A DNA stretch of 64,000 nucleotides from Celeribacter neptunius (GTDB taxonomy: Bacteria > Pseudomonadota > Alphaproteobacteria > Rhodobacterales > Rhodobacteraceae): the NCBI RefSeq assembly GCF_900113955.1, contig NZ_FORH01000001.1, forward strand, positions 674,395 through 738,394, written 5' to 3'. The notes under the pieces were generated by a model. That model searched no databases and had not been told where the DNA came from. It worked only from the letters and a program-made list of their open reading frames with translations. Numbering within the stretch: the first letter of the stretch is position 1; each line of letters begins with the position of its first letter. Position numbers and translations under genes: made by a program. Of this stretch, positions 30,421 to 45,728 are shown in pieces.

Positions 30421-30791
30421 CCATCCTTTCCTGTCAAACTGACTGGAGTGATCCGGCGGGGCGCTTTGCCGTTCTCCCGCCTTGCTTCCCCCTGTCGCTG
30501 ACGCGGGGGGCACCTGTCGCGCGCTCCGGGGTGGAAAAGGCCGGGTGGGGAAGAATCGATAATTGCCATGCCGGCACAATTCTCGGCTGCGCGGGCGATT
30601 TTTCCGGGGACGAGCAGGCCTGAAAATACATTCATAAACACCTATATGAGAGGCGATCTGTTCGAAACACTGGCAATTTCAAGAAATTTCGCACAATATT
30701 TGCACATTCAGAGGTTTTTGAGAGGGGCGAAGCCGAGAATGCCCTGTCACGTTTGACGGCGAGAGTTTTGCCCGCGTAGCTTTAGATCAAC
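30421..30791. other. non-coding region upstream of the amide operon leader
   Basis: No gene seen. The part from about 30610 to 30720 is AT-rich and probably contains the operon promoter; within it is a perfect dyad, AATTTC-AA-GAAATT (30675-30688), that could be an operator. I could not place a convincing -35/-10 or -24/-12 pair. Confidence 0.4.
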
Positions 30792-30882
30792 GCCGAGCAA
30801 ATGTGCTCATACGGCAAATTTCAATCCGACACATACCGGCAAGTGAGCCCCCAAAGCATTTTCATGCTTGTGGGGCTTTTTT
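30792..30882 (+). promoter_or_regulatory. candidate ANTAR-controlled leader RNA (antiterminator/terminator)
   Basis: Hairpin P1 (30792-30815) has a GAGC/GCTC stem closing the six-base loop AAATGT, with an outer GCC/GGC pair set. A second small hairpin (30838-30849) has a GGC/GCC stem closing the six-base loop AAGTGA; its 3' arm is part of the 5' arm of the terminator that follows, so the two are mutually exclusive. In addition GCTCA (30805-30809) can pair with TGAGC (30844-30848). Tandem hexaloop hairpins ahead of a terminator are the known target layout of ANTAR antiterminators such as AmiR, whose homologue is the second gene of this operon. The loops have A at position 1 but G at position 5, not at 4 as I recall for the consensus. 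Confidence 0.6.
30846..30882 (+). terminator. intrinsic terminator in the amiC leader
   Basis: Two 6-bp stems (AGCCCC/GGGGCT and AAGCAT/ATGCTT) separated by a 2x2 internal loop, a TTTC loop, then six T (30877-30882). It ends only 16 bases before the amiC start codon, so it must act as an attenuator of the operon rather than the end of an upstream gene. Confidence 0.85.
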
Positions 30883-30898
30883 GCGTTGGGGAATGGCA

Positions 30899-32059
30899 AT
30901 GAACAAGATCGAGCTCCCAATTGGCCTGCTTTTCTCGGACACCGGCTCTTATGGCACGGTGGCGCATACGCTCCTCAACGGGGCGCGGCTCGCCTGTGCC
31001 GAAGTCAATGCCGATCCCGCCTCCGGTGTCACGTTCGAGCCGTTTCACATCGATCCGCAGGGCGATCTGCAAAATTACGCGCCGGCGGTGCAGCAGATGC
31101 TCGATCGTGGCATTCGCCATATCTGCGGCTGCTACACCTCGTCGAGCCGCAAAGAGGTCATCCCGCTGATCGAGAAACATGATGCCCTGCTGTGGTATCC
31201 GACCCATTACGAGGGGTTCGAAAGCGCCACGAATGTCGTCTACACGGGGGCGGCGCCCAATCACCATATCTCGCCGCTGATCGATTTCCTGTGCGCGCGT
31301 TTCGGCCATAGCGCCTATTGCATCGGCTCCAATTATATCTGGGGCTGGGAAAGCAATCGGGTGATGCGCGACGGTTTGCAGAAACGCGGCGGGGAAGTGC
31401 TCGCCGAGCGCTATCTGCCGGTCGGGGAGACCGCGCTCGACGACATCATTTCCGAGATCCTCGAGCTCAAGCCCGACTTCGTCTTCAATGCGCTGATCGG
31501 AGACTCCTCCTATGCCTTCTTCCGGGCCTTTCGAACGGCCTGTATCGACCGCGGTATCGACCAGGTAACGCGCTTTCCGATCGCGAGCTGTAACCTGTCG
31601 GAGCCGGAGCTGCAGGCGATCGGGCCGGTGGGCGCCGACGGGCAAATCAGCTCGAGCGTCTATTTCGCCTCGCTTCCGGGCGCGCGCAATGCCCGCTTCG
31701 TGGCGGCCTATCGGGAGCGTTTTCCCGACGGCCCGGCGGTCTCGGCCGAGGCCGAAGCCGCCTATATTTCCGTGCATATGCTGGCCAAGGCGGTGGCGCA
31801 GGCCGGCACGGCCGAGGTCGCTGCGGTGCAGGACGCCGTGGCCGGTCAGGTCTTTGACGCGCCGCAAGGCCGGGTGACGATCGACCCGGAGACCTTTCAT
31901 GCCGAACTGACCCCGCGGATCGGGCTCTCACGCTCGGATTTCGAGTTCGAGATTCTGGTCGAAGCCGCCCGCCCGGTGACCCCGGACCCCTATCTGGTGG
32001 CCTCGGCCACCAAGCTTGAAACCGTGCAGCGGCACCCGCGCATGAGGATCGTGTCATGA
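30899..32059 (+). CDS. amiC: AmiC-like amide-sensing regulator
   Basis: Periplasmic-binding-protein fold without signal peptide, hence cytoplasmic; 386 residues, matching AmiC of Pseudomonas (385). It begins IELPIGLLFSDTGSYG and has CGCYTSSSRKEVIPLIEKHDALLWYPTHYEGFE, typical of the AmiC/UrtA group. AmiC binds short amides and in their absence holds AmiR inactive. Two ATGs lie six bases apart; 30899 is preferred because GGGGA is 6 bases upstream. It is the first gene after the leader terminator and overlaps amiR by four bases (ATGA), consistent with the equimolar complex. Confidence 0.85.
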   Translation: MNKIELPIGLLFSDTGSYGTVAHTLLNGARLACAEVNADPASGVTFEPFHIDPQGDLQNYAPAVQQMLDRGIRHICGCYTSSSRKEVIPLIEKHDALLWYPTHYEGFESATNVVYTGAAPNHHISPLIDFLCARFGHSAYCIGSNYIWGWESNRVMRDGLQKRGGEVLAERYLPVGETALDDIISEILELKPDFVFNALIGDSSYAFFRAFRTACIDRGIDQVTRFPIASCNLSEPELQAIGPVGADGQISSSVYFASLPGARNARFVAAYRERFPDGPAVSAEAEAAYISVHMLAKAVAQAGTAEVAAVQDAVAGQVFDAPQGRVTIDPETFHAELTPRIGLSRSDFEFEILVEAARPVTPDPYLVASATKLETVQRHPRMRIVS

Positions 32060-32715
32060 GAACACCGCGCGTCACGCAAAACTTTCGCGACCGGACTGCC
32101 GTCATCCTGACGCCCGGCGGGCGTTCGCTCGACGCGCTCGAGACGACGTTGCGGCGGCTTGGCCTGACACCGGAACCGCGCCCGCTCACGGTTCCGCAAC
32201 AGGGTCTGGAGCTGCCGGAAAATCTCCTGCCGGAACAGCATATCGTGCTGATCGATGGCGATCTGAGCCTACCGCCGGTCTGGCCGGAGAGCTATGGGCT
32301 CGCGGATGCGATGGCGCCCTGTCCGACCATCGGGCTGGTGGGGATCGAAGCCCCCAGCCGGCTCAAGGCCCTGTTTCAGCTTGGGGCGCTGTCGCTCCTG
32401 CCGAAACCGATTCACAGCGGCTCGGTCTATTCCGCGCTTTTCCTGGCGGTGAATGAGTTCAGCCGGATGAACGGCCTGCAGGGCAAGCTGGACGATTTGA
32501 CGGAGCGGCGACGCAAGAGAATTCACGTCATCAGGGCGGTGGCGGCACTCATGCGCCAGCAAGGGCTCACTGAAGATGCAGCGTATGATGTCTTGCGAAA
32601 AGACAGCATGCGGGCACGTGTCAGCATCGAGGATCATTGTGAGATCCTGATGCGGGCAAGACCGGAGGGCGACGCTGGTCGCCAGTTATCCCACAAGAGG
32701 TGTCAAACGCGCTAG
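32056..32715 (+). CDS. amiR: AmiR-like ANTAR transcription antiterminator
   Basis: 219 residues. The N-terminal part looks like a degenerate receiver (IVLIDGDL at 63-70, LLPKPI at 114-119), then a coiled-coil linker (about 135-155), then an ANTAR domain (RIHVIRAVAALMRQQG, LTEDAAYDVLRKDSMRAR, 155-188). AmiR binds leader RNA and prevents termination when released by AmiC. The C terminus runs about 20 residues past the ANTAR helices. Coupled to amiC; the transporter operon continues 42 bases downstream. The candidate RNA target is the leader at 30792-30882. Confidence 0.88.
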   Translation: MRTPRVTQNFRDRTAVILTPGGRSLDALETTLRRLGLTPEPRPLTVPQQGLELPENLLPEQHIVLIDGDLSLPPVWPESYGLADAMAPCPTIGLVGIEAPSRLKALFQLGALSLLPKPIHSGSVYSALFLAVNEFSRMNGLQGKLDDLTERRRKRIHVIRAVAALMRQQGLTEDAAYDVLRKDSMRARVSIEDHCEILMRARPEGDAGRQLSHKRCQTR

Positions 32716-32757
32716 GCGTTACGAAACACCCGTAAAAAACGCAACAAGGAGTTGAAA

Positions 32758-33996
32758 ATGCAAAAAAATCTTACAGGCGCCATTTCGGCGCTCGCTACCC
32801 TATTGTCTTTTGCAGGGCCTCTGGCCGCGCAGGATGTCGAGCCGATCAAGCTTGGCGTTCTCGAAGACCAGTCCGGCGACTTTGCCCTGGCGACGATCGG
32901 CAAGGTGCATGGCATCGAGCTGGCGACCAAGGAAATCAATGACGCCGGCGGCATCGCCGGACGCCCGATCGAGCTGGTGACCTATGACACGCAGTCCGAC
33001 AACACGCGCTATCAGGAGTTCATGCGCCGGGTGCTGCAGCGCGACAAGGTCGACGTGGTCTTCGCCGGCTTTTCGTCCGCCTCGCGCGAAGCCTATCGCC
33101 CGATCGTCAATCAGTTCGACGGGCTGGCCTTCTACAACAACCAGTATGAAGGCGGGGTTTGCGACGCCAATATGATCGTCACCGGCGCGGTTCCGGAACA
33201 GCAGTTCTCGACCCTGCTGCCCTATATGATGGAGACCTACGGCAAGAAGGTCTACACCATCGCGGCGGATTACAACTTCGGTCAGATCTCGGCCGAATGG
33301 GTCCGCAACATCGTCGCCGAGAATGGCGGCGAGATGGTCGGCGAGGAGTTCATCCCGCTTGGTGTCTCGCAATTCTCGCAGACGATCCAGAACATTCAGG
33401 CCGCCAAACCTGATTTTGTTGTGACCCTGCTCGTCGGCACCGCGCAATCTTCGTATTACGAACAGGCGGGGGCCGCCAATGTCGACCTGCCGATGGCCTC
33501 CTCGGTCAATGTCGGTCAGGGCTATGAGCACAAGCGCTTCACCCCGCCGAGCCTGAAAGACATGTACGCGACGGTGAACTATGTCGAAGAGATCGACACG
33601 CCGGAAAGCAAGGCCTTCGTCGAGAAGTTCCACGCGATGTTCCCCGACGAGCCCTATATCAACCAGGAGGCGGAAAACTCCTATGCGGCGGTCTACCTGT
33701 TCAAGGAGATGGTTGAGAAGGCCGGTGGTTCGACCGAGCTTGCCGACCTGCGTGCCACCCTGGCCGATGGCAATCTCTGCTATGACGCCCCGGAAGGCGA
33801 AATGTGCATCGATCCGAAAAGCCAGCACACTTCGCACACCATCTATCTGGCGCATGTCAAAGAAGATCACGCGATCGAGTTCCCGACGAAATGGGACGCG
33901 ATTCAGCCCTATTGGCTCGGCGATGTCGGCTGTGATCTGACCCAGAACGATCCGAGCGCGCAATATACGCCGTCGAACCTGCCCTCGGCAGACTAA
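32758..33996 (+). CDS. ABC transporter substrate-binding protein, amide/urea type
   Basis: Periplasmic binding protein of the branched-chain amino acid/urea/amide class. 412 residues with a signal peptide ending near PLAAQ (residue 25). It begins IKLGVLEDQSGDFA and contains FYNNQYEGGVCDANMIVTG, close to the UrtA/FmdD-type proteins. The start at 32758 has AAGGAG 6 bases upstream. It is the exported counterpart of the cytoplasmic AmiC-like sensor two genes upstream; both probably recognise the same small amide. First of five transporter genes. Confidence 0.88.
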   Translation: MQKNLTGAISALATLLSFAGPLAAQDVEPIKLGVLEDQSGDFALATIGKVHGIELATKEINDAGGIAGRPIELVTYDTQSDNTRYQEFMRRVLQRDKVDVVFAGFSSASREAYRPIVNQFDGLAFYNNQYEGGVCDANMIVTGAVPEQQFSTLLPYMMETYGKKVYTIAADYNFGQISAEWVRNIVAENGGEMVGEEFIPLGVSQFSQTIQNIQAAKPDFVVTLLVGTAQSSYYEQAGAANVDLPMASSVNVGQGYEHKRFTPPSLKDMYATVNYVEEIDTPESKAFVEKFHAMFPDEPYINQEAENSYAAVYLFKEMVEKAGGSTELADLRATLADGNLCYDAPEGEMCIDPKSQHTSHTIYLAHVKEDHAIEFPTKWDAIQPYWLGDVGCDLTQNDPSAQYTPSNLPSAD

Positions 33997-34079
33997 GACC
34001 ACCGGGCTGCGGAGCCTCACACTCCGCAGCCCTCAGCGCCGCCGGTTCTTCAGCAGACTTCGCAAGAAAGGGATGCTCC

Positions 34080-34952
34080 ATGGAGTTCCTCTACTCACTT
34101 TTCTCGTTTCTCTATCAGTTCGGGGATGCTTTCGCCTTCCTCGTGTTGAGCGCCTGCGGGCTCGCCGTGATTTTCGGCATGATGGGGGTGATCAATCTCG
34201 CCCATGGCGAATTCATTCTCTGTGGCGCCTATGTCTCGACCAGCGTGACGCATATGGGGGTGCCCCTGCCTCTGGCCATTCTCGCCGGATCGGTCGCCGC
34301 CGGGATCGCGGGGATGATCGTCGAAGTGGCGGTGATCCGGCCGCTTTACAAACGACCGCTCGATACGATCGTCGCGACCTGGGGCATTTCGATGATCGTC
34401 ACCCAGGGCACTTTGATCGTGCTCGGGACAACCATGGCCGGCAGCGGCACGCCCTTTGGCAGTTTCTCGATCGGCAATTATTCCTATTCCGTCTATCGCG
34501 TGGTCCTGATGATCATGGCGCTGGTGACACTGGCCGCGCTGTGGCTGATGTTCACCAAGACCCGTTTCGGCATCCTTGCCCGTGCCACCATCCAGGTGCC
34601 GCATGTGGCCGAGGCGCTCGGGGTCAATACCAACCTGGTCTACAGCATGACCTTCGGCCTCGGCGCTGCATTGGCCGGGCTGGCCGGCGGTCTTTATGCG
34701 CCGACCATGACCCTGGTGCCGACGATGGGATCGTCCTTCATGGTCGAGGCTTTCGTCACCGTCGTCGTGGGCGGGGCGGATATCTTTCTCGGCACGGCAC
34801 CGGCGGCGGTCGTCCTCGGCTTCATCAAGGCGACGCTGACCTCGTGGCAAGGCCAGCTGGCCGGTCAGATCGGCATGCTGATCGCCGTCATCATCGTGAT
34901 CCGTATCCTCCCGCGCGGCATCAGCGGCAAGATCCTGAAAGAGAGAGCCTGA
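34080..34952 (+). CDS. ABC transporter permease (LivH/UrtB type)
   Basis: 290-residue inner-membrane permease with about eight hydrophobic segments. Landmarks are MMGVINLAHGEFILCGAYV near the N terminus and the late VVGGADIFLGTAPAAVVLGF, both typical of LivH/UrtB. An 83-base gap separates it from the binding-protein gene; the second permease begins 2 bases after it. Pairs with the next permease to form the channel. Confidence 0.92.
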   Translation: MEFLYSLFSFLYQFGDAFAFLVLSACGLAVIFGMMGVINLAHGEFILCGAYVSTSVTHMGVPLPLAILAGSVAAGIAGMIVEVAVIRPLYKRPLDTIVATWGISMIVTQGTLIVLGTTMAGSGTPFGSFSIGNYSYSVYRVVLMIMALVTLAALWLMFTKTRFGILARATIQVPHVAEALGVNTNLVYSMTFGLGAALAGLAGGLYAPTMTLVPTMGSSFMVEAFVTVVVGGADIFLGTAPAAVVLGFIKATLTSWQGQLAGQIGMLIAVIIVIRILPRGISGKILKERA

Positions 34953-34953
34953 C

Positions 34954-36024
34954 ATGTCTCACCCCTCCCGTTTCACCGCTTTCCTGAAGCTTGTCGAAGG
35001 GCCGCAAACCCTGGGCAAGGGCCCGAAATTCTGGTCGGTTTTCGCGCTGGTCCTGCTGGCGGCCTGTATCTATCCGCAGTTTGCCGACAGCTATGACGTG
35101 GGCAATAACGTCTACTTTTTCAACTGGCTGTTCATGGCCATGGGGCTCAGCCTGATCTGGGGCTATGGCGGCGCGCTCAGCTTCGGTCAGACCGCCTTCT
35201 TCGGGGTGGCCGGCTATGCTTACGGCGTGCTCACGATCAACCTCGGGGATGCCTATGGGCTGACGCTTGTGTCGCTCCTGCTCGCCGTCGGGATCAGCGC
35301 GCTCTTTGCCGCGATCCTCGGCTACTTCCTGTTTTATGGCCGGATCAGCGGTGTGTTCCTGGGCATCGTGACGCTTTCCGTCACGCTGGTGCTCGAACGG
35401 TTCATGGCGCAGACGGCTGGGCCGCAATGGGCGATCGGCAAGGCCCGGCTGAACGGGTTCAACGGCATGGGGGCGATGCCGTCGCTGACCATTCCCTGGC
35501 CCGGCGGCGCAATCGTGCTCTATCCCGATGTCACGCTTTATTACGTGACGCTCGCCCTGCTGGTGAGCGTCTATCTCGGGCTTCGGATTCTGGTGAATTC
35601 GCGGTTCGGCAATGTCATCGTCGCGATCCGGGAAAACCCGCTGCGCGCAGAGATGCTCGGTTATGACATCCGCAAATATCAATTGATCACCTTTGTCATC
35701 GGTTCGGCGCTCGCCGGTCTCTCGGGCGTGCTCTACACCTCCTGGGGCAATTATATCACGCCCGCCTCGATGGGGATGACCGCCGCGTCCCTGCCGATCG
35801 TCTGGGTCGCGGTCGGAGGCCGGTCGGATCTGACGACGACGCTCATCGGTGCGCTGGCGGTGCTCATCGTGTTCCAGACGCTGACGATCTACGGCAGCCA
35901 ATATGCGCTGGTGGTGATGGGGGCGCTTCTGGTGATCACCGTGCTGATCGCCCCCCGCGGCATCGTGATCGCCCTGTCCGATCTCCTGCCGGCGCGCAAA
36001 TCCAAGATGAAAGGGGAGGTGTGA
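34954..36024 (+). CDS. ABC transporter permease (LivM/UrtC type)
   Basis: 356-residue permease with about ten hydrophobic segments. The block LIWGYGGALSFGQTAFFGVAGYAYG and the coupling-region RENPLRAEMLGYDIRKYQLITFVIGSALAGLSG are standard for LivM/UrtC. Its stop shares a base with the following ATPase start (TGATG). Confidence 0.92.
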   Translation: MSHPSRFTAFLKLVEGPQTLGKGPKFWSVFALVLLAACIYPQFADSYDVGNNVYFFNWLFMAMGLSLIWGYGGALSFGQTAFFGVAGYAYGVLTINLGDAYGLTLVSLLLAVGISALFAAILGYFLFYGRISGVFLGIVTLSVTLVLERFMAQTAGPQWAIGKARLNGFNGMGAMPSLTIPWPGGAIVLYPDVTLYYVTLALLVSVYLGLRILVNSRFGNVIVAIRENPLRAEMLGYDIRKYQLITFVIGSALAGLSGVLYTSWGNYITPASMGMTAASLPIVWVAVGGRSDLTTTLIGALAVLIVFQTLTIYGSQYALVVMGALLVITVLIAPRGIVIALSDLLPARKSKMKGEV

Positions 36025-36740
36025 TGGCTATTCTCGAAACCCGCCAGCTCAACAAGCATTTCGGCGGTCTCCATGTGACAGGCAATGTCGATTTCGCGCT
36101 CGAACCGGGGGAGATGCATTGTCTGATCGGTCCGAACGGCGCCGGCAAGAGCACCTTTTTCCGGCTGATCCTCGGCGAACATATGCCCGACAGCGGTCAT
36201 ATTCTCTACGATGGCAGCGACATCACGCGCAACAAACCGTTCGAACGCATCCGCCGCGGCATCAGCGTGAAGTTTCAGGTGCCGGGGATTTTCAAGGAAT
36301 TGAGCGTCCGGCAAAACCTCGAGATCGCGCTGCAGCACCATGTCGCGCCGCTGATGCTGCACGAGGAAATCGATCGCCTGCTCGAATTCCTGAAGCTTTC
36401 CGCGGATCACATGCAGCTGGCGGGCAATCTCAGCCACGGGCAGAAGCAATGGCTGGAGATCGGCATGGCGGTGGCGCTGAAGCCGAAGCTTCTGCTGCTC
36501 GACGAGCCGACCGCCGGCATGACACCCGACGAGACCTTTGCCACCGGCGAAATGCTTCAGGAGCTGAACCGCGAGGGCATGACGCTGCTCGCCGTCGAGC
36601 ATGACATGGCCTTTGTCCGGCAGATCGCACACCAGGTGACGGTGCTGCATTTCGGCAAGGTTTTCGCCCAGGGCACGATCGATGAAATCGTTGCCGATGA
36701 GCGTGTGACCGCAATCTATCTGGGAGAGGCCGATGCGTAA
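36024..36740 (+). CDS. ABC transporter ATPase (LivG/UrtD type)
   Basis: 238-residue nucleotide-binding subunit: Walker A GPNGAGKST, Q-loop region KFQVPGIFKELSVRQN, signature LSHGQKQWLEIG, Walker B LLLLDEPTAGM and H-loop VEHDM. LSHGQ in place of LSGGQ is seen in UrtD relatives and supports a urea/amide type rather than an amino-acid type. The ATG at 36024 follows GGGGAGG; a GTG three bases earlier is less likely. Overlaps the next ATPase by 8 bases. Confidence 0.92.
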   Translation: MAILETRQLNKHFGGLHVTGNVDFALEPGEMHCLIGPNGAGKSTFFRLILGEHMPDSGHILYDGSDITRNKPFERIRRGISVKFQVPGIFKELSVRQNLEIALQHHVAPLMLHEEIDRLLEFLKLSADHMQLAGNLSHGQKQWLEIGMAVALKPKLLLLDEPTAGMTPDETFATGEMLQELNREGMTLLAVEHDMAFVRQIAHQVTVLHFGKVFAQGTIDEIVADERVTAIYLGEADA

Positions 36741-37446
36741 GGATGTTATTCTCGATGTCATCAACCTGAATTCCGGCTATGGCGGGAAACCGGTGTTGCA
36801 AGGCGCCGATTTCCAGGTCCGCGAAGGCGAGATCGTCGCCGTGATCGGCCGCAACGGGGTTGGCAAGTCGACCCTGATGAAGACGCTGATCGGCCTGTTG
36901 CCGACCGACAAGGGCTCTGTCAATCTGCGTGGCGCCTCGGTCGATCTTTTGTCGGCGCATAAACGCGCGCGCAAGGGGATCGGCTATGTGCCGCAGGGAC
37001 GCGACGTGTTCCCGCGGATGAGCGTGCTCGAGAACCTCTTGGTCGGAGAGGCGATTTCCGGTCGCTCCATCGCCGGCAAGGTCGAGGAAATCTACAAGTA
37101 TTTCCCGATCCTGAAGGAACGCGCGGATCAGCGTGCCGGCACCATGTCCGGCGGGCAGCAACAGCAGCTCGCGATCGGGCGGGTGCTGATGGGAGAGCCG
37201 TCGCTCATCCTGCTCGACGAACCCTCCGAAGGCATCCAGCCCAATATCGTGCAGGACATCGCGCGCATCATGGTCGAGCTGAACCGGGAGACCGGCGTCA
37301 CCGTCGTTTTCGTTGAACAGAACATCGACATGATCCGGGCGATGGCACAGCGCTGCTACGTCATGGACAAGGGCCGCATCGTCGCCGAGCTGGATCAGGA
37401 CATGCTGCAGGACCGCAATACCATTCGCCAATACCTCTCGGTTTGA
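36733..37446 (+). CDS. ABC transporter ATPase (LivF/UrtE type)
   Basis: 237-residue nucleotide-binding subunit: Walker A GRNGVGKST, signature MSGGQQQQLAIG, Walker B LILLDEPSEGIQPNIV and H-loop VEQNID. The EGIQPNIVQDI stretch after Walker B is characteristic of UrtE-type proteins. Completes the importer; the formamidase gene follows after 42 bases. Confidence 0.92.
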   Translation: MRKDVILDVINLNSGYGGKPVLQGADFQVREGEIVAVIGRNGVGKSTLMKTLIGLLPTDKGSVNLRGASVDLLSAHKRARKGIGYVPQGRDVFPRMSVLENLLVGEAISGRSIAGKVEEIYKYFPILKERADQRAGTMSGGQQQQLAIGRVLMGEPSLILLDEPSEGIQPNIVQDIARIMVELNRETGVTVVFVEQNIDMIRAMAQRCYVMDKGRIVAELDQDMLQDRNTIRQYLSV

Positions 37447-37488
37447 AACCGTTGGCACAGTCAAGACCATCACAGAAAGGACCCCGTT

Positions 37489-38487
37489 ATGAGCTGGTTT
37501 GAAGAGTCGATCATGGCCCGCAAAGGCGTCGCGCAAGGCAAGACGCTCGAGACGCGCACCATCACCGAGGCCGAGCAGGGTGATTACCCGTATATCTACA
37601 CCGCCGGGATCGATCCCGTGCTGCGCGTCGATCCGGGCACCGTGGTCAGCGCCGAGACGCATGACGCTTTCGAAGGCGCGATTCAGAAGGAAACCGATGT
37701 CCCGACGGAGATCCTGAACTTTCCCTTCCTCAATCCGCAGAACGGGCCGATCTATGTCAACGGTGCCGAAAAGGGCGACACCATCGCCGTCTATATCGAA
37801 AGCATCGTACCGCGCGGGCCGCAGCCGCGGGGCACCACCGTCATCATGCCGGAATTCGGCGGTCTCGTGCCGACATTCGAAACCGCTCTGCTGACCCAGC
37901 CGCTGCCCGAAGTGGTGCGCAAGCTGGACATCACCGTGGAAGAGGGCACCAAATGGAACGATCAGATCAGCCTGCCGTATGAGCCCTTTATCGGCACCAT
38001 CGGCACGGCGCCGGAAGCGGAGGCGATTTCCTCGCTGGTACCCGACTATTACGGCGGCAACATGGACCTGCCCGATGTCGCGCCGGGCGCGGTGGTCTAC
38101 CTGCCGGTGCAGACCGAGGGCGGCTATCTGTTCCTCGGGGATTGTCACGCGGCGCAGGGCGACGGCGAATTGTGCGGTGTCGCGATCGAGCACCCGACCG
38201 TCACCACGGTGCGCATCGATCTGATCAAGAACTGGAGCATCCGCACGCCGCGTCTCGAGAACAAGGATTTCTACATGACCGTGGGCTCGGCGCGCCCGAT
38301 GGAGGATGCCGCCCGCGGTGCCTATCGCGAGCTGATCCGCTGGATGGCGGCGGATTTCGGTTTTGACGAGATCGATGCCTATATGCTGCTGACGCAATGC
38401 GGACGCGTGCGTCTCGGCAATATGGTGGACCCGAAATATACGGTCGGGGCCTCTGTGCTCAAATCGATCATCGGCATCGCAGACTAA
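37489..38487 (+). CDS. fmdA: formamidase/acetamidase (FmdA_AmdA family)
   Basis: Hydrolyses formamide or acetamide to the acid and ammonia; cytosolic. 332 residues with the family blocks YTAGIDPVLRVDPGTVVSAETHDAFEG near the N terminus, GTIGTAPEAE in the middle, the GGNMDLPDVAPGAVVYLPVQTEGGYLFLGDCHAAQGDGELCG block with histidine and acidic residues (when read across its segments), and a C-terminal TQCGRVRLGNMVDPKYTV. AAAGGA lies upstream of the ATG at 37489. Product of the amide operon, turning imported amide into usable nitrogen. Confidence 0.92.
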   Translation: MSWFEESIMARKGVAQGKTLETRTITEAEQGDYPYIYTAGIDPVLRVDPGTVVSAETHDAFEGAIQKETDVPTEILNFPFLNPQNGPIYVNGAEKGDTIAVYIESIVPRGPQPRGTTVIMPEFGGLVPTFETALLTQPLPEVVRKLDITVEEGTKWNDQISLPYEPFIGTIGTAPEAEAISSLVPDYYGGNMDLPDVAPGAVVYLPVQTEGGYLFLGDCHAAQGDGELCGVAIEHPTVTTVRIDLIKNWSIRTPRLENKDFYMTVGSARPMEDAARGAYRELIRWMAADFGFDEIDAYMLLTQCGRVRLGNMVDPKYTVGASVLKSIIGIAD

Positions 38488-38498
38488 GCGACCCGAGA

Positions 38499-38521
38499 TG
38501 GGGCGGTGCCGTTCCGCCCCA
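38499..38521 (+). other. GC-rich hairpin between formamidase and amidase
   Basis: TGGGGCGG and CCGCCCCA form a perfect 8-bp stem around a 7-base loop. No T-run follows, so it is not a standard terminator; it could stabilise the upstream message or lower amidase expression. Confidence 0.6.
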
Positions 38522-38607
38522 ATCCTCCTCACCCCGCATTTCGAACCCGCCCGGCCTCACCCCGGGTCATGGCAGCGTGACGCTTGCCAATCGCACAGGA
38601 GCACCCA

Positions 38608-40164
38608 ATGACCACGGACTCTTCCACTTCGCACCCTTCGGAGAAATCCCTGCCGGATCTCGGGACACTGAGTGTCGCGGCCGTGCAGGACGGCCTGCAA
38701 TCGGGCCGGTTCACCGCCGAGGCGCTGACCAAGGCCTGTCTCGCCCAGATCGCGGCGCTGAACGGCCATTACAACGCGATCATCTTTGAAAACGAAGCGG
38801 CGCTCGAGACCGCGCGCGAGATTGATCGTCGTCTGGCCGCCGGAGAAAAGCTCGGTCCGCTGGCCGGCGTTCCTGTGGTGGTGAAAGACCCGATGGACAT
38901 GCAGGGCATCCCGACGACCGCCGGCTGGCGCATGCTCTATTCCAAGGCCGGAGGGGTCGATCTCATTCCCGAACGGGACAGTCCCGTCGTGGCGCGGATG
39001 CGGGCGGCGGATGCGGTCATCCTTGGCAAGACCAATGTGCCGATCCTGAGCTGGACCGGAACCCATGCCAATGACAGCTGGGCTGGGCCGACCATCAATC
39101 CGGCGATCGAGGACCGGGCGCCGGGCGGCTCGAGCGCCGGCACGGCGGCGGCGGTTGCGACGCATATGTGCGTTCTGGGACTGGCGGAGGAAACCGGGGG
39201 CTCGATTCAGAACCCGGCCTCGGCGCAGGGGCTCGTGGGGATCAAGCCGACCATCGGTCTGGTGCCGAATGCCGGGGTGGTCCCGCTGTCCGGCAACCGG
39301 GACGTTGTCGGGCCGATTGCCCGCACGGTGCGCGATGCCGCCCTCGGTCTCGATGTTCTGGCCGGGTTCACCACCGAGGACCCCAAGACACTCGCCGCGG
39401 TCGACAAGATCCCCGAAGACGGCTATGCCGCAGGTCTCTCGAAGGACGGGCTGAAAGGCAAACGCCTTGGTCTCTACGGCCCCGGCTGGCGCAAGGATGC
39501 GCTCTCCGAAGAGGCGGCCCGGCTCTATGAGCGCGCCAAGGCAGAGCTGAAAGAGCTCGGTGCGGACCTGGTCGAGGACCCCTTTGCCGGCACCGATTTT
39601 GCCACGCTGCGCCAGATCACGCCGGGCACGCCGTTCTTCGACGGGCGCGGCCTTGAATCCATCCCTTACGACATGACGCTCTATTTGCGCCGGCTCGGTG
39701 AAAATGCTGCGCTCAAGACATGGGAGGAATTCGTAGAGGCCACGAAAGCCGAAGATCCTTTCGCCAAGGGCGCGATCCTGGGGTTTCTCAAGGAGCTGCC
39801 CGATTTCCTTGCAGCGGTGAAATCTCCGGCGACGCCGCCGGCCATGCCGGAGTTCACGGCGCTCAAACGCCGCTATCTCCAGCTGATCGATCAGGTCTTT
39901 GCCGAGCACGATTTGGATGCGCTGGTCTATCCGCAGATGCTGCAGGAACTGCCCGGGCTCCATTCGGGCGACGCCATCCTTGAGACGACCGTCGGAGAGC
40001 TGAACATCGCCGGTCTCCCCGGGATCACCGTGCCGGCGGGCTATTACGCCTCGGGGGCGCCGTTCGAGCTGATTTTCCTCGGGAAACAATGGGGGGAACC
40101 GGATCTCATCCAAAGCGCCTACGCCTATGAACAGGGGACAGCCCACCGCAAACCGGCCATTTGA
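38608..40164 (+). CDS. amidase (amidase-signature family)
   Basis: 518-residue Ser-cisSer-Lys hydrolase. The triad is visible: Lys in VVVKDPMDM (about residue 91), the cis-Ser in EETGGSIQNPAS, and the nucleophile region APGGSSAGTAAAVA. The C-terminal AGLPGITVPAGYYASGAPF block is standard. Start at 38608 has AGGAG 6 bases upstream; an earlier in-frame TTG is rejected. Probably hydrolyses a second class of amides imported by the same operon. Last gene of the amide operon; about 57 bases later the SOS promoter of imuA begins. Confidence 0.93.
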   Translation: MTTDSSTSHPSEKSLPDLGTLSVAAVQDGLQSGRFTAEALTKACLAQIAALNGHYNAIIFENEAALETAREIDRRLAAGEKLGPLAGVPVVVKDPMDMQGIPTTAGWRMLYSKAGGVDLIPERDSPVVARMRAADAVILGKTNVPILSWTGTHANDSWAGPTINPAIEDRAPGGSSAGTAAAVATHMCVLGLAEETGGSIQNPASAQGLVGIKPTIGLVPNAGVVPLSGNRDVVGPIARTVRDAALGLDVLAGFTTEDPKTLAAVDKIPEDGYAAGLSKDGLKGKRLGLYGPGWRKDALSEEAARLYERAKAELKELGADLVEDPFAGTDFATLRQITPGTPFFDGRGLESIPYDMTLYLRRLGENAALKTWEEFVEATKAEDPFAKGAILGFLKELPDFLAAVKSPATPPAMPEFTALKRRYLQLIDQVFAEHDLDALVYPQMLQELPGLHSGDAILETTVGELNIAGLPGITVPAGYYASGAPFELIFLGKQWGEPDLIQSAYAYEQGTAHRKPAI

Positions 40165-40220
40165 GCAAGACGGGGCAGGGGAGCGGGACAATCCTTCTTT
40201 GGTCTTTTATGGGTCTTTCA

Positions 40221-40257
40221 TTGGCATATGGTGCGTGTTCATCTTATGTTCTCCCTA
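40221..40257 (+). promoter_or_regulatory. LexA-controlled promoter of imuA-imuB-dnaE2
   Basis: The alphaproteobacterial SOS box GTTC-N7-GTTC is present exactly: GTTC at 40237-40240 and 40248-40251. It overlaps a -10-like TTATGT (40244-40249), which is 17 bases from a -35-like TTGGCA (40221-40226). The expected start of transcription is at about 40256-40257, the ATG of imuA itself. Confidence 0.85.
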
Positions 40258-40886
40258 TGCGAGTCGATTTTGACAAGGTCTTTCCCCTGCGCCGGGCCCG
40301 GGTCCATGAGGTCTTCGGGCCCGGTGCCATGAGTTTTGCCGCCATCAGCTTTGCCACCATGGCCGGGCATGGGGCCGGGCAGGGCGCGGGGCTGTGGATC
40401 CGCGAAAGCTGGCTGTCCGACGGGCTCACGCCGCAGGGCCTCCTGCCTTTCTTCGATCCGGCGCAGCTGCTCCTGGCCCGGCCCAAGGATCAGATCGACG
40501 CGCTCTCCGTGGCCGAAGAGGCGCTTCGGGACGGGGTCCTGCCCTTTGTGGTGATCGAGATCACCCGGGCGCTGAACCTGCGCGAAGGACGACGGTTGCA
40601 ATTGGCCGCCAAGGCAGGCGGCGCCACCGGCCTGTGTCTCATTCCCGAGGGCATGGGGTCGAATGCCGCCGAGACCCGCTGGCAGGCCGCGCCTCTGTTC
40701 GATCCAGAGGGCAATCCCGCGCGGCAAGACTCGACTTTGATGCGCTGGGAAATTAAAAAGAACAAATCAGGAACACTTGGAGCCTGGAATGTTCGATGGG
40801 ATCCGAAAGCGCGCCGTGTGCATGTGGTTTCCCCGGTTGCCGAGCGACCGGGTGCTGCGGGTGCGCCCGCTGGCCCGGCCGGATGA
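40257..40886 (+). CDS. imuA: SOS mutagenesis protein ImuA
   Basis: RecA-like accessory protein of the ImuA-ImuB-DnaE2 translesion system. 209 residues; the conserved FPLRRARVHEVFGPGAMSFAAISFATMAG stretch lies near the N terminus and LLLARPKDQIDALSVAEEALRDG in the middle. No Walker A motif is seen, as usual for ImuA. The ATG at 40257 is preferred because the LexA box and predicted -10 lie directly before it; upstream in-frame starts would lie within or before the promoter. No ribosome binding site is present, consistent with a leaderless message. Its 3' end overlaps imuB by 98 bases in another frame. Confidence 0.85.
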   Translation: MRVDFDKVFPLRRARVHEVFGPGAMSFAAISFATMAGHGAGQGAGLWIRESWLSDGLTPQGLLPFFDPAQLLLARPKDQIDALSVAEEALRDGVLPFVVIEITRALNLREGRRLQLAAKAGGATGLCLIPEGMGSNAAETRWQAAPLFDPEGNPARQDSTLMRWEIKKNKSGTLGAWNVRWDPKARRVHVVSPVAERPGAAGAPAGPAG

Positions 40887-42318
40887 GAGCCCATTCGCGC
40901 TGACGCTCCGGGCCAAGAACACAGAGCGGATCTATTGTCTCAACGCGGCGGCCGAGCGGCAGGGGCTCCGCCGCGGCATGAGCTTTGCCGATGCCCGGGC
41001 GTTCTGTCCCGATCTGCTGAGTCAGCCGGCGCGGCCGGATCTCGACGCGCGGTTTCTCGCGACCCTGCGCCGTTGGGCAACGCGCTATTGCCCCTGGGTG
41101 GGGTATGAGGGCGAGGACGGGCTGGTGCTCGATGTCACCGGCTCCACCCATCTCTGGGGCGGTGAGGCGGAGATGCTCGCAGATATGCAGGCGCGCGCGC
41201 GCCGCGCCGGGCTGACGCTGCGACTGGGGCTGGGCGAGACCCGCGGTGCGGCCTGGGCTTTCGCGCATTTCGGCGATGGGCAAGCCGGGCTCACGGCGTT
41301 GCCGGTCGCCGCGCTGCGGCTTGAGGATCGCATGGTCACCGCCTTGGAACGGCTGGGGCTTCGCACCATCGGCGATCTCAGTGCCGCGGCCCGGGCACCG
41401 CTGGCGCGTCGTTTCGGGCCGGAGCTGTTGCTGCGGCTGGATCAGGCCATGGGCGATATCCCGGAACCGACCATGCCGGAAAGCGAGCCGCCGCGGTTTG
41501 CCGTGCGGATGAGCCTGCCGGAGCCGATCGGGCTCGCGGAGGACGTCATGGGCATCACCGCCCGGCTTCTGGCGCCGCTCTGTGACAAGCTCAAGGCACA
41601 GGAGATGGGCGCGCGTCGTCTCACCCTGACTCTGCGCCGGGTCGATCAGGGCAGTCCCGAGGTCGAGCTGCGCCTGGCCGCGCCGATGCGTGACCCGCAT
41701 CGTATCCTGCCGCTGTTCACCCGTGGCGTCGGCGAGGTCGACGCGGGGTTCGGCATCGATCAGATCCGGCTGGAAGCGACTCAGGTCGAGCCCCTGCCGG
41801 TGCAGCAGATCGGCAGTCGCCATATTGGCGCGGCGGCGCAGGCGCCGGATCGATTGAACGATCTGATCACCCGCATCGGCACCCGCATCGGGCTGGAGCA
41901 GATCCAGCGCTTTCTGCCCGCCGACAGCCATATCCCGGAACGTGCCTTCACGATGGCCGCCGCCGCGTTTAGCACGCCCGACAGCGCATGGGCCTTGCCC
42001 GGTCCGCGGCCGCTGCGGCAGTTTCCGCCGGAACCGATCGCCAGTCACGGTGCTGGTCACGGTGCTGGTCACGGTGCGGGTCACGGTGCTGGGCAGGGCG
42101 CTGAACCGCCCGCGCGGTTTCGCTGGCGACGGATGACGCTTTCCACCGGGCGCGCCGTGGGGCCGGAACGCATCGCGCCGGAATGGTGGCTGCCGGATGA
42201 AAACTGGCGCTCAGGTCTGCGCGATTACTGGCGGATCGAGACGCGCGAGGGGCGCCGGCTCTGGCTCTATTACACACCACAAAATCCCGGCTGGTTCGTG
42301 CAGGGGGAATTCGCGTGA
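40789..42318 (+). CDS. imuB: ImuB, Y-family polymerase-like protein
   Basis: Non-catalytic Y-family relative that bridges ImuA and DnaE2 and contacts the beta clamp. 509 residues: VCMWFPRLPSDRVLR at the N terminus (no catalytic acidic DxD as in DinB), GLRRGMSFADARAFCPDL, GLVLDVTGSTHLWGG, a helix-hairpin-helix region (LGLRTIGDLSAAARAPL), and the conserved PADSHIPERAF near 395. A (HGAG)n stretch encoded by 12-base repeats lies near 420-440. Start at 40789 has GGAG upstream; 40822 is an alternative. Overlaps dnaE2 by four bases (GTGA). Confidence 0.9.
   Translation: MFDGIRKRAVCMWFPRLPSDRVLRVRPLARPDESPFALTLRAKNTERIYCLNAAAERQGLRRGMSFADARAFCPDLLSQPARPDLDARFLATLRRWATRYCPWVGYEGEDGLVLDVTGSTHLWGGEAEMLADMQARARRAGLTLRLGLGETRGAAWAFAHFGDGQAGLTALPVAALRLEDRMVTALERLGLRTIGDLSAAARAPLARRFGPELLLRLDQAMGDIPEPTMPESEPPRFAVRMSLPEPIGLAEDVMGITARLLAPLCDKLKAQEMGARRLTLTLRRVDQGSPEVELRLAAPMRDPHRILPLFTRGVGEVDAGFGIDQIRLEATQVEPLPVQQIGSRHIGAAAQAPDRLNDLITRIGTRIGLEQIQRFLPADSHIPERAFTMAAAAFSTPDSAWALPGPRPLRQFPPEPIASHGAGHGAGHGAGHGAGQGAEPPARFRWRRMTLSTGRAVGPERIAPEWWLPDENWRSGLRDYWRIETREGRRLWLYYTPQNPGWFVQGEFA
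42046..42105 (+). repeat. 12-base tandem repeat inside imuB
   Basis: Four near-identical units of CACGGTGCTGGT (42046-42093) plus a degenerate fifth (to 42105) encode repeated His-Gly-Ala-Gly. Being in multiples of three bases, copy-number change would keep the frame. A similar HGAGQGAG segment occurs in ImuA near 40366. Confidence 0.9.
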
Positions 42319-45300
42319 GTGAGAAACGTCCAGGACATGATCCGGGGGATCATGGCAGTTTCGAACAGGCGGAGCCCCAGCGCCCATATTGGCCGTCTGG
42401 CCAATATGCCGAATTGTGCACCACCTCGAATTTCACCTTTCTCACCGGGGCTTCGCATCCCGAAGAGCTGATGCTGCGCGCCGCCGAGCTGGGGCTTGAG
42501 GCCGTGGCTATCACTGACCGCAACACGCTCGCCGGGGTGGTTCGTGCATATTCTGCGCTCAAGACCCTGCGCGAGGAGGCCTCCGAGAGCCTTCGGGTGC
42601 GGTCCTCGCATCGGGTCGATCCGAGTTCCCGGCAGGATTTTGGCGCGTCCCTCGATCTGCCGCGACCGGAGCCGTCCAGATTGCCGAAGCTCCCAAGGCT
42701 GATCGTCGGCAGTCGTCTCGTGCTGCGCGATTGCCCGGTGGAATTTCTAGCCCTGCCGACGGATCGGGCCGCCTATCACCGGCTGGCGCGGCTGTTGACC
42801 ACGGGCAAGCGGCGGGCGGAAAAGGCCGAATGCCATCTCGATCTGAGCGACGTGGAGGCGGGTTGTCAGGGCATGATCCTCATTGCCCTGCCGCCGCCGG
42901 ATCTGCCTCAGGCGCTCGCCCCGCTCGGGCGGCTGCAACGGCGCTATCCGGGGCAGGTCTTCCTTGGCGCCGCACCACGATATGACGGCTCCGATCAGGC
43001 CTGGTTCGATGCCTGCGCCGCACTGGCGCTCAGGTGCTCCACCCCGATGGTGGCTCTGGGCGATGTGCTCATGCATCACGGGCGGCGGCGCAGATTGGCG
43101 GATGTGCTGACCTGTATGCGCGAGGGGCTCACCATCGACCGGATCGGCACGCGGGCGCTGGCCAATGCCGAGCGGCGGCTGAAAGGCGCCGCCGACATGG
43201 CGCGGCTCTACCGGCGGCACCCGGCGGCGCTCAAACGCACATTGGAGATCGCGGCGCGCTGTGGCTTTGATCTCTCTGAACTGAGCTATGAATACCCGGA
43301 TGAGATGGCCGAAGGCGAGGAACCTCAGGCGCGGCTTGAACGGCTGGCGCGCGAAGGTGTCAAACGCCGCTACCCTGAGGGCGCCTCCGAGCGGGTGCAT
43401 GGCCTGATGGAAAAGGAGCTCTCCTTGATCGGTGAGCTGCGTTACGCGCCCTATTTCCTCACCGTGCATGATATCGTGCAGGAGGCACGCGCGCGCGGCA
43501 TTCTCTGTCAGGGGCGTGGCTCGGCGGCCAATTCGATCCTCTGTTACCTGCTGGGTATCACCGATGTCTCGCCCGACATGATCGGCATGGTGTTCGAGCG
43601 CTTCATTTCACGTCATCGCGGCGAGCCGCCCGATATCGATGTGGATTTCGAACACGAGCGGCGCGAGGAGGTGATCCAGTGGATCTATGAGAAATATGGC
43701 CGTCACCGCGCTGGTCTTTGTGCCACGGTGATTCATTTCCGCACCCGCGCCGCGATCCGCGAGGTCGGCAAGGTCATGGGCCTGTCCCAGGACCTTACCG
43801 CACGGCTCTCGGGCGATATCTGGGGCATGTCCAACGCCGGCGCGGATCTGGAGCGGGTCAAGGCCCTGGGGCTTGACCCGACGGACCGGCGGCTGGCCCA
43901 GACCATCGAACTCATCGGTGAGATCATCGGCTTTCCACGGCACCTGAGCCAACATGTCGGCGGCTTCATCATCACCCGCGGGCGCCTGGATGAGCTCTGC
44001 CCGATCGAGAACGCCGCGATGGAGGATCGCACGGTGATCGAATGGGACAAGGACGATATCGACGCTCTGGGTATCCTGAAGGTCGATGTGCTGTCCTTGG
44101 GCATGCTCACATGTCTGCGCAAGAGCTTCGACCTGTTGCAGCAACATGAGAAGATCCGGCACCGGCTCGACACGGTGCCGCAGGAAGATGGTACGACCTA
44201 TGAGATGCTGCAACGCGCCGATGCGGTGGGGGTGTTCCAGGTCGAAAGCCGGGCGCAGATGAATTTTCTGCCGCGGATGAAGCCCAAAACCTTCTACGAT
44301 CTGGTGATCGAGGTCGCCATTGTGCGCCCCGGCCCGATCCAGGGCGGTATGGTCCAGCCCTATATCCGGCGAAGGCAAAAACTCGAAGCGCCGGAGCCCT
44401 TCGGTCCCGCGCTCGAAGAGGTCACCCGCAAGACCCTCGGCGTGCCCTTGTTTCAGGAACAGGCGATGCAGATCGCCGTGGTCGGCGCGGGCTATACGGC
44501 GGAAGAGGCCGACAAGCTCCGGCGCTCTCTGGCCTCGTTCCGGCGCATGGGCACGATCGGCGCCCATCGTGAGCGGTTCCTGCAGGGCATGCGCCAGAAT
44601 GGCTATAGCGACGCCGTGGCCGAGGCCTGTTTTTCGCAGATCGAAGGCTTCGCCGATTACGGGTTTCCGGAAAGCCATGCGGCGGCCTTTGCCATGCTGA
44701 CCTATGTCTCGTCCTGGCTGAAATGCCACCACCCGGCGGTCTTTGCCTGTGCTTTGCTGAACTCCCAGCCGATGGGGTTTTACGCGCCCGCCCAGATCGT
44801 CCGCGATGTCCGCGACCATGGCGTCGAGGTGCGGCCGGTCTGTGTCAACAACTCGGGCTGGGACAATCTTCTGGAACGCCGGGCCGACGGGGCGCTGGCG
44901 CTCAGGCTCGGGTTTCGCCAGATCAAGGGCTTTCGCGAAGAGGATGCCGGTTGGATCACGGCGGCGCGCGGCAATGGCTATCAGGACCCGGAGAGCGTCT
45001 GGCTCAGGGCAGGGGTGGCGCCTGCGGTGCTCGAACGTCTGGCCGAGGCGGACGCCTTCATCGGCATGGGGCTGACGCGGCGCGATGCGCTCTGGCAGGT
45101 GCGCGCCATTCGTGCGCCGAAACCCTTGCCTCTGTTCTCCGACCCGCTCGATGGCGAAGGCATTCGTGAGCCGCAGGTCAGCCTGCCTGCGATGCATCTG
45201 GGCGAGGAGGTGGTGGAGGATTACGTCGCTCTGCGCCTCACCTTGCGGGCCCATCCGATGGAGCTTCTGCGCCCGGGCATTCCCGGCCTGACGCCGCATG

Positions 45301-45728
45301 ACCGTTTGCCCACAGCACCGCTCAGGCGCACTGCCGTCTGCGGCCTCGTCATCACCCGGCAACGTCCGGGCACGGCCTCCGGCGTGATCTTCCTGACGCT
45401 CGAAGACGAGACCGGTGTCTCGAATGTGGTGGTCTGGCCCAAGGTCTACAAACGCTTCCGCCGGACCGTCATGGGCGGGCGGTTGCTGCGCGTCACCGGG
45501 CGGTTGGAGCGCGAGGGCATGGTTGTGCATCTGATCGCCGATCACATCGAGGACCTGTCCGACAAGCTCTCGGAATTGGGCCATCCCCTGGACGATGCGG
45601 TGGGCATCACCCAGCCACAGGCCGACGATGCGCCGCGTCGCACGCGATCGGCCGCGCGCCCCAAACCCACCGCGCGCCACCCCCGCGAACAGGCCAAACG
45701 CCTGTTCCCGAGCCGGGATTTCCATTGA
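42315..45728 (+). CDS. dnaE2: error-prone DNA polymerase DnaE2
   Basis: C-family polymerase for SOS-induced translesion synthesis. 1137 residues: an N-terminal PHP domain (SNFTFLTGASHPEELMLRAAELG, ITDRNTLAGVVR), the palm with GRGSAANSILCYLLGITDV and the catalytic PPDIDVDFEHERREE aspartates, fingers and tandem HhH, and a C-terminal OB fold (VCGLVITRQRPGTASGVIFLTLEDETG). The start is GTG at 42315, overlapping the imuB stop. The last 40 residues are basic and low-complexity. Third gene of the LexA-controlled cassette. Confidence 0.95.
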   Translation: MSEKRPGHDPGDHGSFEQAEPQRPYWPSGQYAELCTTSNFTFLTGASHPEELMLRAAELGLEAVAITDRNTLAGVVRAYSALKTLREEASESLRVRSSHRVDPSSRQDFGASLDLPRPEPSRLPKLPRLIVGSRLVLRDCPVEFLALPTDRAAYHRLARLLTTGKRRAEKAECHLDLSDVEAGCQGMILIALPPPDLPQALAPLGRLQRRYPGQVFLGAAPRYDGSDQAWFDACAALALRCSTPMVALGDVLMHHGRRRRLADVLTCMREGLTIDRIGTRALANAERRLKGAADMARLYRRHPAALKRTLEIAARCGFDLSELSYEYPDEMAEGEEPQARLERLAREGVKRRYPEGASERVHGLMEKELSLIGELRYAPYFLTVHDIVQEARARGILCQGRGSAANSILCYLLGITDVSPDMIGMVFERFISRHRGEPPDIDVDFEHERREEVIQWIYEKYGRHRAGLCATVIHFRTRAAIREVGKVMGLSQDLTARLSGDIWGMSNAGADLERVKALGLDPTDRRLAQTIELIGEIIGFPRHLSQHVGGFIITRGRLDELCPIENAAMEDRTVIEWDKDDIDALGILKVDVLSLGMLTCLRKSFDLLQQHEKIRHRLDTVPQEDGTTYEMLQRADAVGVFQVESRAQMNFLPRMKPKTFYDLVIEVAIVRPGPIQGGMVQPYIRRRQKLEAPEPFGPALEEVTRKTLGVPLFQEQAMQIAVVGAGYTAEEADKLRRSLASFRRMGTIGAHRERFLQGMRQNGYSDAVAEACFSQIEGFADYGFPESHAAAFAMLTYVSSWLKCHHPAVFACALLNSQPMGFYAPAQIVRDVRDHGVEVRPVCVNNSGWDNLLERRADGALALRLGFRQIKGFREEDAGWITAARGNGYQDPESVWLRAGVAPAVLERLAEADAFIGMGLTRRDALWQVRAIRAPKPLPLFSDPLDGEGIREPQVSLPAMHLGEEVVEDYVALRLTLRAHPMELLRPGIPGLTPHDRLPTAPLRRTAVCGLVITRQRPGTASGVIFLTLEDETGVSNVVVWPKVYKRFRRTVMGGRLLRVTGRLEREGMVVHLIADHIEDLSDKLSELGHPLDDAVGITQPQADDAPRRTRSAARPKPTARHPREQAKRLFPSRDFH

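Follow-up and report, generated by a model that had tools for sequence, protein, structure and literature searches.

How is an amide operon switched when its regulators are its own first genes, and by which RNA letters does the regulator recognise its target? Both questions are raised by a locus in Celeribacter neptunius, contained in a stretch of 64,000 nucleotides (nt) of contig NZ_FORH01000001.1 (positions 674,395 to 738,394 of the forward strand; hereafter the window). About 10 kb of the window, on a single strand, carry the genes of an amide sensor (AmiC), an ANTAR-domain antiterminator (AmiR), a binding protein, two permeases, two ATPases, an FmdA/AmdA-family amidase and a signature amidase. 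The leader in front of amiC, about 105 nt long (30753-30882), comprises a promoter, two hairpins (P1 and P2) and a terminator ending in T6. We conclude that this is very probably a self-controlled operon for amide uptake and hydrolysis, governed by AmiC/AmiR antitermination of its own leader with positive feedback, and that ANTAR-RNA recognition in it is possibly altered. The features of leader and operon are as follows.

30753..30782, + strand: promoter, TTGACG (30753-30758), 18-nt spacer, TAGCTT (30777-30782); from sequence and a conserved distance to P1
30792..30815, + strand: P1, lower helix GCC/GGC (30792-30794 with 30813-30815), upper helix GAGC/GCTC (30795-30798 with 30805-30808)
30838..30849, + strand: P2, antiterminator hairpin GGC-AAGTGA-GCC, loop 30841-30846, 3' strand forming the 5' base of the terminator
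30847..30882, + strand: intrinsic terminator overlapping P2, stem 30847-30876, T6 30877-30882; fold test, covariation in related leaders
30893..32059 (alternative ATG 30899), + strand: amiC, amide sensor; PF13433 403.3 bits, 1pea AmiC E 2.6e-63
32056..32715, + strand: amiR, pseudo-receiver, coiled coil and ANTAR antiterminator; PF03861 43.8 bits, AlphaFold model against 1qo0 chain E
32758..33996, + strand: urtA-like binding protein, signal-peptide-like N-terminus (by eye); TIGR03669 604 bits, cut-off 494.8
34080..36024, + strand: urtB-like and urtC-like permeases; PF02653, with TIGR03622 and TIGR03727 both below cut-off
36021..37446, + strand: urtD-like and urtE-like ATPases; PF00005, TIGR03411 256.5 (cut-off 304.1), TIGR03410 279 (cut-off 285.8)
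37489..38487, + strand: FmdA/AmdA-family amidase; PF03069 116.8 bits
38608..40164, + strand: amidase-signature hydrolase, last gene; PF01425 265 bits

The open reading frames and family assignments bear out the genes, order and strand given in an earlier note made from the letters of this DNA, including the 4-nt ATGA overlap at the amiC/amiR junction (32056-32059). Its formamidase stands at the family level (PF03069) but not as the FmdA equivalog, for which NF045496 gave 62.9 bits against a cut-off of 500. The solved chains nearest to AmiC were 8tg1 and 1pea (the latter over residues 10-370), and no signal peptide was seen by eye at its N-terminus, as in an amide sensor without an export signal; the protein would thus be cytoplasmic. 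The ANTAR domain of AmiR scored above cut-off, and its AlphaFold model (pLDDT 89.6) was best matched by 1qo0_E from the AmiC-AmiR complex (Z 14.6, 187 residues, root-mean-square deviation 3.9), followed by EutV 6wsh (Z 13.4). Among the UrtABCDE urea-importer equivalogs, the binding protein exceeded the cut-off of TIGR03669 only, and the permeases and ATPases fell below theirs.

The leader shows the dual-hexaloop arrangement of ANTAR elements, namely two hairpins with six-base loops of which the second overlaps an intrinsic terminator. The P1 hexaloop is AAATGT (30799-30804) on a lower helix of three pairs only, and T6 ends 16 bases before the ATG at 30899. Folding of the whole leader gave -39.0 kcal/mol (z -2.87; as good in 3 of 200 shuffles), P1 alone reached z -2.33 (likewise 3 of 200), and the terminator region 30838-30884, at -24.6 kcal/mol (z -4.1), was equalled by none of 200 shuffles. 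A simple terminator scan of the window did not list the terminator at 30847-30882, and Rfam at gathering scores over the window returned two tRNAs only, with no match at the leader. Because a sigma-70 scan of the window did not list the promoter at 30753-30782 either, the case for it comes from related leaders: TTGAC precedes the P1 loop by 44-53 nt in 82 of 84, and 76 of these have it at a distance of exactly 46 or 47 nt; among random 50-nt control segments it occurred in 47 of 1680.

These related leaders were taken from an AmiC-alignment scan that yielded 314 confirmed loci, of which the best 80, the nearest part of a larger family, were kept; five plasmid loci and the window completed a set of 86 (a sixth plasmid locus was identical to L077). 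Candidate hairpins were listed by script and P1 and P2 chosen by eye, P1 being readable in 84 loci. We found amiR directly behind amiC in all 86, with a 4-nt overlap in 77, and the core amiC-amiR-urtABCDE-fmdA was complete in 80 of the 85 loci besides the window. Three of the incomplete cores (L046, L056, L059) reach contig ends, L108 is a short contig with amiC-amiR-fmdA only, and L100 has a different set. The five-gene Urt-like importer that the earlier note had placed in the circuit therefore belongs to one conserved operon, and AmiC/AmiR circuits that include an importer occur in amide operons of many alphaproteobacterial genera. Close relatives of the last-gene amidase (70-85% identity) were present in 11 of the 85 loci, every one with the shifted P1 loop described below; L100 has only a distant match (30%) to the window's signature amidase. 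Among 248 sampled family genomes, an AmiR of >50% identity occurred only in the genome itself and in G226. Within the genus, all 20 genomes have a binding protein matching AmiC, and this AmiC was found only in its own genome, the next best being 40% identical, so that the operon is patchy in the genus.

To represent the leader we built a covariance model, R1, from 31 leaders, with Rhodobacterales excluded from training. R1 recovered the window leader with 41.5 bits (E 1.2e-8, window searched). Over the 4.4-Mb genome this leader was the sole significant match (E 8e-7), and no second one indicative of a regulon was found among the 150 of 1793 first-look candidates that were scored (next E 6.94). 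In 43 of the 54 other non-training loci, on which R1 was run, the leader was matched in 43/43 at E <= 1 and in 40/43 at E <= 0.01, most weakly in L112, L071 and L063; loci L041-L043 served in a single R1 search only. In the training alignment, 97.0% of cells were paired compared with 91.7% after shuffling, a value reached in 0 of 500 shuffles, and P1 showed double changes in three of four lower-helix and one of four upper-helix pairs. For the lower helix across 82 distinct flanks, own partners scored 12.9 versus 10.4 when swapped (standard deviation 0.25, maximum 11.2 of 1000; relatedness uncontrolled); it is absent from L034. Seven of eight terminator pairs in related leaders had double changes. 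This second, covarying lower helix of P1 is new here and, like the shifted loop letters described below, goes unmentioned in the earlier note. The earlier note had described small hexaloop hairpins and a strong terminator 16 bases before amiC, and had proposed a covariance-model search and a comparison of leaders; both were carried out, and with the fold tests they confirm the hairpins and terminator and support by homology its reading of the leader as the operon's own antitermination switch of AmiC/AmiR type.

With genes, leader layout, conservation and genome match read from the sequence, ligand release, RNA binding, read-through and feedback are proposed here by analogy with Pseudomonas aeruginosa AmiC/AmiR and with EutV. 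Transcription would start at the foot of P1. In the absence of ligand, AmiC would hold AmiR, the terminator at 30847-30882 would fold and most transcripts would end before amiC. A small amide, of formamide or acetamide size, would enter the cell, bind AmiC and free AmiR, whose dimer would then hold P1 and P2. Since P2 would thereby capture the first bases of the terminator stem, RNA polymerase would continue through amiC, amiR, the importer and the amidases, and this read-through would yield positive feedback.

Several results weigh against this account. P2 alone folds weakly (-3.9 kcal/mol), a value that 27 of 200 shuffles equalled, and its stem is the same in every training leader, so covariation cannot speak for it. 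R1 is unspecific below about 35 bits: of 390 genomes from the order, each with ten candidates scored, 11 yielded a match at E <= 0.01. In eight of the 11, AmiC/AmiR was not found within about 1.5 kb, and several of these matches are visibly plain terminators. The three with amiC or amiR within that distance were the genome itself, G636 and G870 (L164). AmiR_N scored 23.7 bits, below its cut-off of 27, and 13 of 83 leaders lack a T-rich tail when at least 4 T of 8 are asked for. Finally, A at loop position 1 (A1) is present in both window loops (AAATGT, AAGTGA), and position 4 is T in both where the consensus has G (G4); G4 is absent from P1 and P2 of all 13 loci, the window among them, that have these P1 loop letters, against its published requirement.

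This requirement is published for EutV. A1 and G4 are held to be conserved in both ANTAR loops, and G4 is reported to be the only base-specific EutV contact and obligatory for EutV antitermination (PMC3369931, PMC8934654); in actinobacteria, A1 and G4 are conserved in more than half (PMC8164766). Across our set, P1 has A1 in 83 of 84 loops and G4 in 64. The 20 without G4 comprise seven Bradyrhizobium or Rhodopseudomonas loci and 13 with T4-G5 (the window, L046-L051, L061, L063, L066, L069, L071 and L074). Of the 14 Rhodobacterales loci, 13, among them the window, have A-A-N-U-G-N as their P1 loop. The exception, Paracoccus aminophilus L034, sits on a long and unsure branch; its AATGGC, with G4, argues against extending the pattern to the order as a whole. 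In the tree the 13 T4-G5 loci group together (one change, SH-aLRT 94), nested among 18 loci whose own grouping has support 99, and G stands at P2 position 5 in four of the 13 (window, L047, L061, L063). By the R1 match, the window leader is homologous to G4 leaders but departs from the strict ANTAR consensus.

The protein changes in the same clade. At the equivalent of EutV K143, the 13 loci have Ile (8, including the window AmiR) or Ala (5), four Phyllobacterium loci (L052-L054, L056) have Ala with P1 G4 retained, L034 has Pro and the other 68 have Arg (L055 and L058 read by eye). P2 carries G4 in 0 of 17 Ile/Ala loci versus 61 of 66 others. Under the recoding proposal given below, the neighbouring Phyllobacterium group may be an intermediate, with the residue changed, P2 G4 lost and P1 G4 kept. 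Since Ile/Ala and the lost G4 fall within one clade, their association is of single origin and does not amount to repeated evidence, and since K143 in EutV contacts the RNA backbone and not G4 (PMC8934654), the link between residue and letter is offered as a hypothesis.

How the clade reads its loops is the point at which two explanations have to be weighed. In an alignment of 12 clade leaders (L050, very like L049, was omitted), P1 loop positions 1 (A), 2 (A), 4 (U) and 5 (G) never vary, whereas mean pairwise identity is 0.52 at position 3, 0.29 at position 6 and 0.50 in the linker, a pattern that speaks for selection on U4-G5. With less assurance than for the switch itself, we think that the clade AmiR probably reads the U4-G5 loop rather than G4. 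The fuller proposal, to which we give somewhat less than an even chance, is that the ANTAR-RNA code was rewritten in a Rhodobacterales lineage: AmiR with its K143 equivalent changed to Ile/Ala would read A1-A2-U4-G5 on a two-helix P1 instead of A1/G4, and P2 would no longer be base-read at position 4 but would act as an anti-terminator strand, positioned through P1 binding. Alternatively, and as a serious if minority possibility, the clade AmiR still recognises nothing but A1 and the shape of the loop, G4 having been lost through relaxed constraint with no new code. In keeping with this, the clade P2 loops retain position 1 only (12/12), A1 is not contacted specifically in the EutV structure and may instead matter for the fold (PMC8934654), and the seven Bradyrhizobium/Rhodopseudomonas P1 loops likewise lack G4; the invariance of four P1 positions beside variable neighbours is what speaks against it. 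In the literature found, the ANTAR-RNA grip is described from one complex, EutV, with G4 its only base-specific contact. The present family offers 86 regulators, each beside its own leader, with one clade in which contact letter and protein residue moved together, a pairing that makes a change of specificity testable by swapping loops and domains. Among the papers listed in searches of open-licence literature, none described this alphaproteobacterial operon, the two-helix P1 or the shifted loop, which is weak evidence of absence because only open-licence papers were covered.

Mainly translational control, with P2 competing against a structure over the ribosome-binding site, is an unlikely explanation of the switch. 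Such control has been suggested for some ANTAR targets (PMC3369931, PMC8164766), and seven Rhizobiaceae-type leaders (L036, L077, L081, L085, L086, L092, L100) lack a U tract while keeping P1 and P2, the P2 3' strand being able in most of them to pair beside the start codon; this suggests a change from terminator to translational control in those seven. A further six (L055, L058, L102, L115, L116, L122) also fail the T-tail test. In the window, by contrast, the terminator with T6 ends upstream of the ribosome-binding site, and 70 of 83 leaders retain a terminator-like hairpin that begins at the P2 3' strand and has 4 or more T of 8 behind it. An ordinary attenuator, or a plain terminator for upstream transcripts with no relation to AmiR, would account for the strong terminator with T6 and for R1 picking up plain terminators at low scores, but is very improbable given two covarying P1 helices and a fixed promoter distance, which are not terminator features, a promoter lying between the upstream genes and the terminator, and an element that stays with amiC-amiR across many genera.

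Some leaders of the set vary in other ways. Those of Bradyrhizobium, Ancylobacter and Kaistia (e.g. L087, L107, L104) have, by eye, an extra hairpin CCAAC...GTTGG between P1 and P2, and Bradyrhizobium P2 loops begin with G (GAGGGC, GAAAGC, GAAGGC). L108, in which no importer gene was matched, has a second R1 match of 32.9 bits (5934-5836, minus strand), opposite in strand to its amiC leader and degenerate in appearance.

As to the ligand, 8tg1 and urea-binding proteins come closest to the exported binding protein. The proposal of the earlier note that AmiC and this protein read one ligand, inside and outside the cell, stays conjectural, as their pocket motifs differ. Urea-binding residues including Gln144 and Asn246 are reported for Prochlorococcus UrtA (PMC10392092), and by motif mapping the urea pocket is partly retained in the exported protein. 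The Gln144 position holds Gln there and His in AmiC, and the motif with Asn246 is FNALIG in AmiC against VTLLVG in the exported protein (motif alignment). Given this partial retention and the two differing motifs of AmiC, an amide other than urea is a plausible ligand.

Other features lie within and beyond the operon.

34004..34032, + strand: 11-bp hairpin without a T-run, between the urtA-like and urtB-like genes; -24.3 kcal/mol
40777..42318, + strand: IMS family (PF00817), family match
42315..45728, + strand: DNA_pol3_alpha, family match

The internal hairpin may serve mRNA 3' end protection or differential expression. On the 3' side of the amidase, an imuA-imuB-dnaE2-type cassette occupies 40161-45728 of the window (+ strand), its ImuA match being weak (23.4 bits, cut-off 150). 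Its start region has a GTTC-N7-GTTC box at 40237-40251, which we take to be an alphaproteobacterial LexA-type box; the pattern occurs four times in the window versus 1.44 expected. As the terminator scan of the window listed no + strand terminator for 40164-40400, read-through from the amide operon into the mutagenesis cassette is possible.

A second amiC-amiR pair exists in the same genome (L044, 7116-8881, minus strand, contig C9), with an ATGA overlap and before an Opp/Dpp-type importer. R1 matched its leader only weakly (17.4 bits, E 0.035); a GGC-ATTCGC-GCC hairpin and a terminator-like stretch are present there, but no clear P1 could be picked out by eye. On these grounds, we dropped the notion that the two AmiR systems of this genome are kept separate by their loop letters.

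Among known systems, the closest comparison is the P. aeruginosa operon written amiECBRS, with which the window shares a sensor of periplasmic-binding fold (1pea), the AmiR fold (1qo0), regulators inside the operon and a dual-hairpin leader with an overlapping terminator (PMC3369936). Unlike it, the window has amiC-amiR first, and a UrtABCDE-type importer with FmdA/signature amidases replaces amiE; the loop letters also appear to differ, the P. aeruginosa leader being known here from the literature. The changed order claimed by the earlier note accordingly holds gene by gene, but regulators lying behind their own switch are found in amiECBRS too (PMC3369936), which makes the positive-feedback layout nothing new. 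With EutV targets the leader shares two hexaloop hairpins, A at position 1 and P2 overlapping the terminator (PMC3369931, PMC8934654), and the window AmiR keeps the equivalents of EutV R142, E160, Y164, R168 and M172 (numbering matched to the residues of PMC8934654). Leader and AmiR of the window differ in lacking G4 in either loop, in having Ile and Val at the K143 and K149 equivalents, and in a second lower helix of P1.

A second AmiR group (L150-L153, L164) resembles the window in having amiC-amiR with a Urt-like importer, an R1 match and small hairpins. There R1 matches downstream of amiR, before the next gene (in four of eight fetched loci, at 22-30 bits and thus in the unspecific range, and in L164), which would place amiC-amiR in front of the switch, and some loops also depart from A1/G4. 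The chromosomal fmdA-fmdB-urtABCDE-amiE cluster of P. veronii likewise joins a Urt-type importer to formamidase/amidase genes, and its authors suspect formamide uptake; unlike the window, that locus as described has neither amiC nor amiR (PMC13209695). Set against these systems, the family adds three things: a conserved layout that contains an importer, a P1 of two helices, and loop letters that have shifted.

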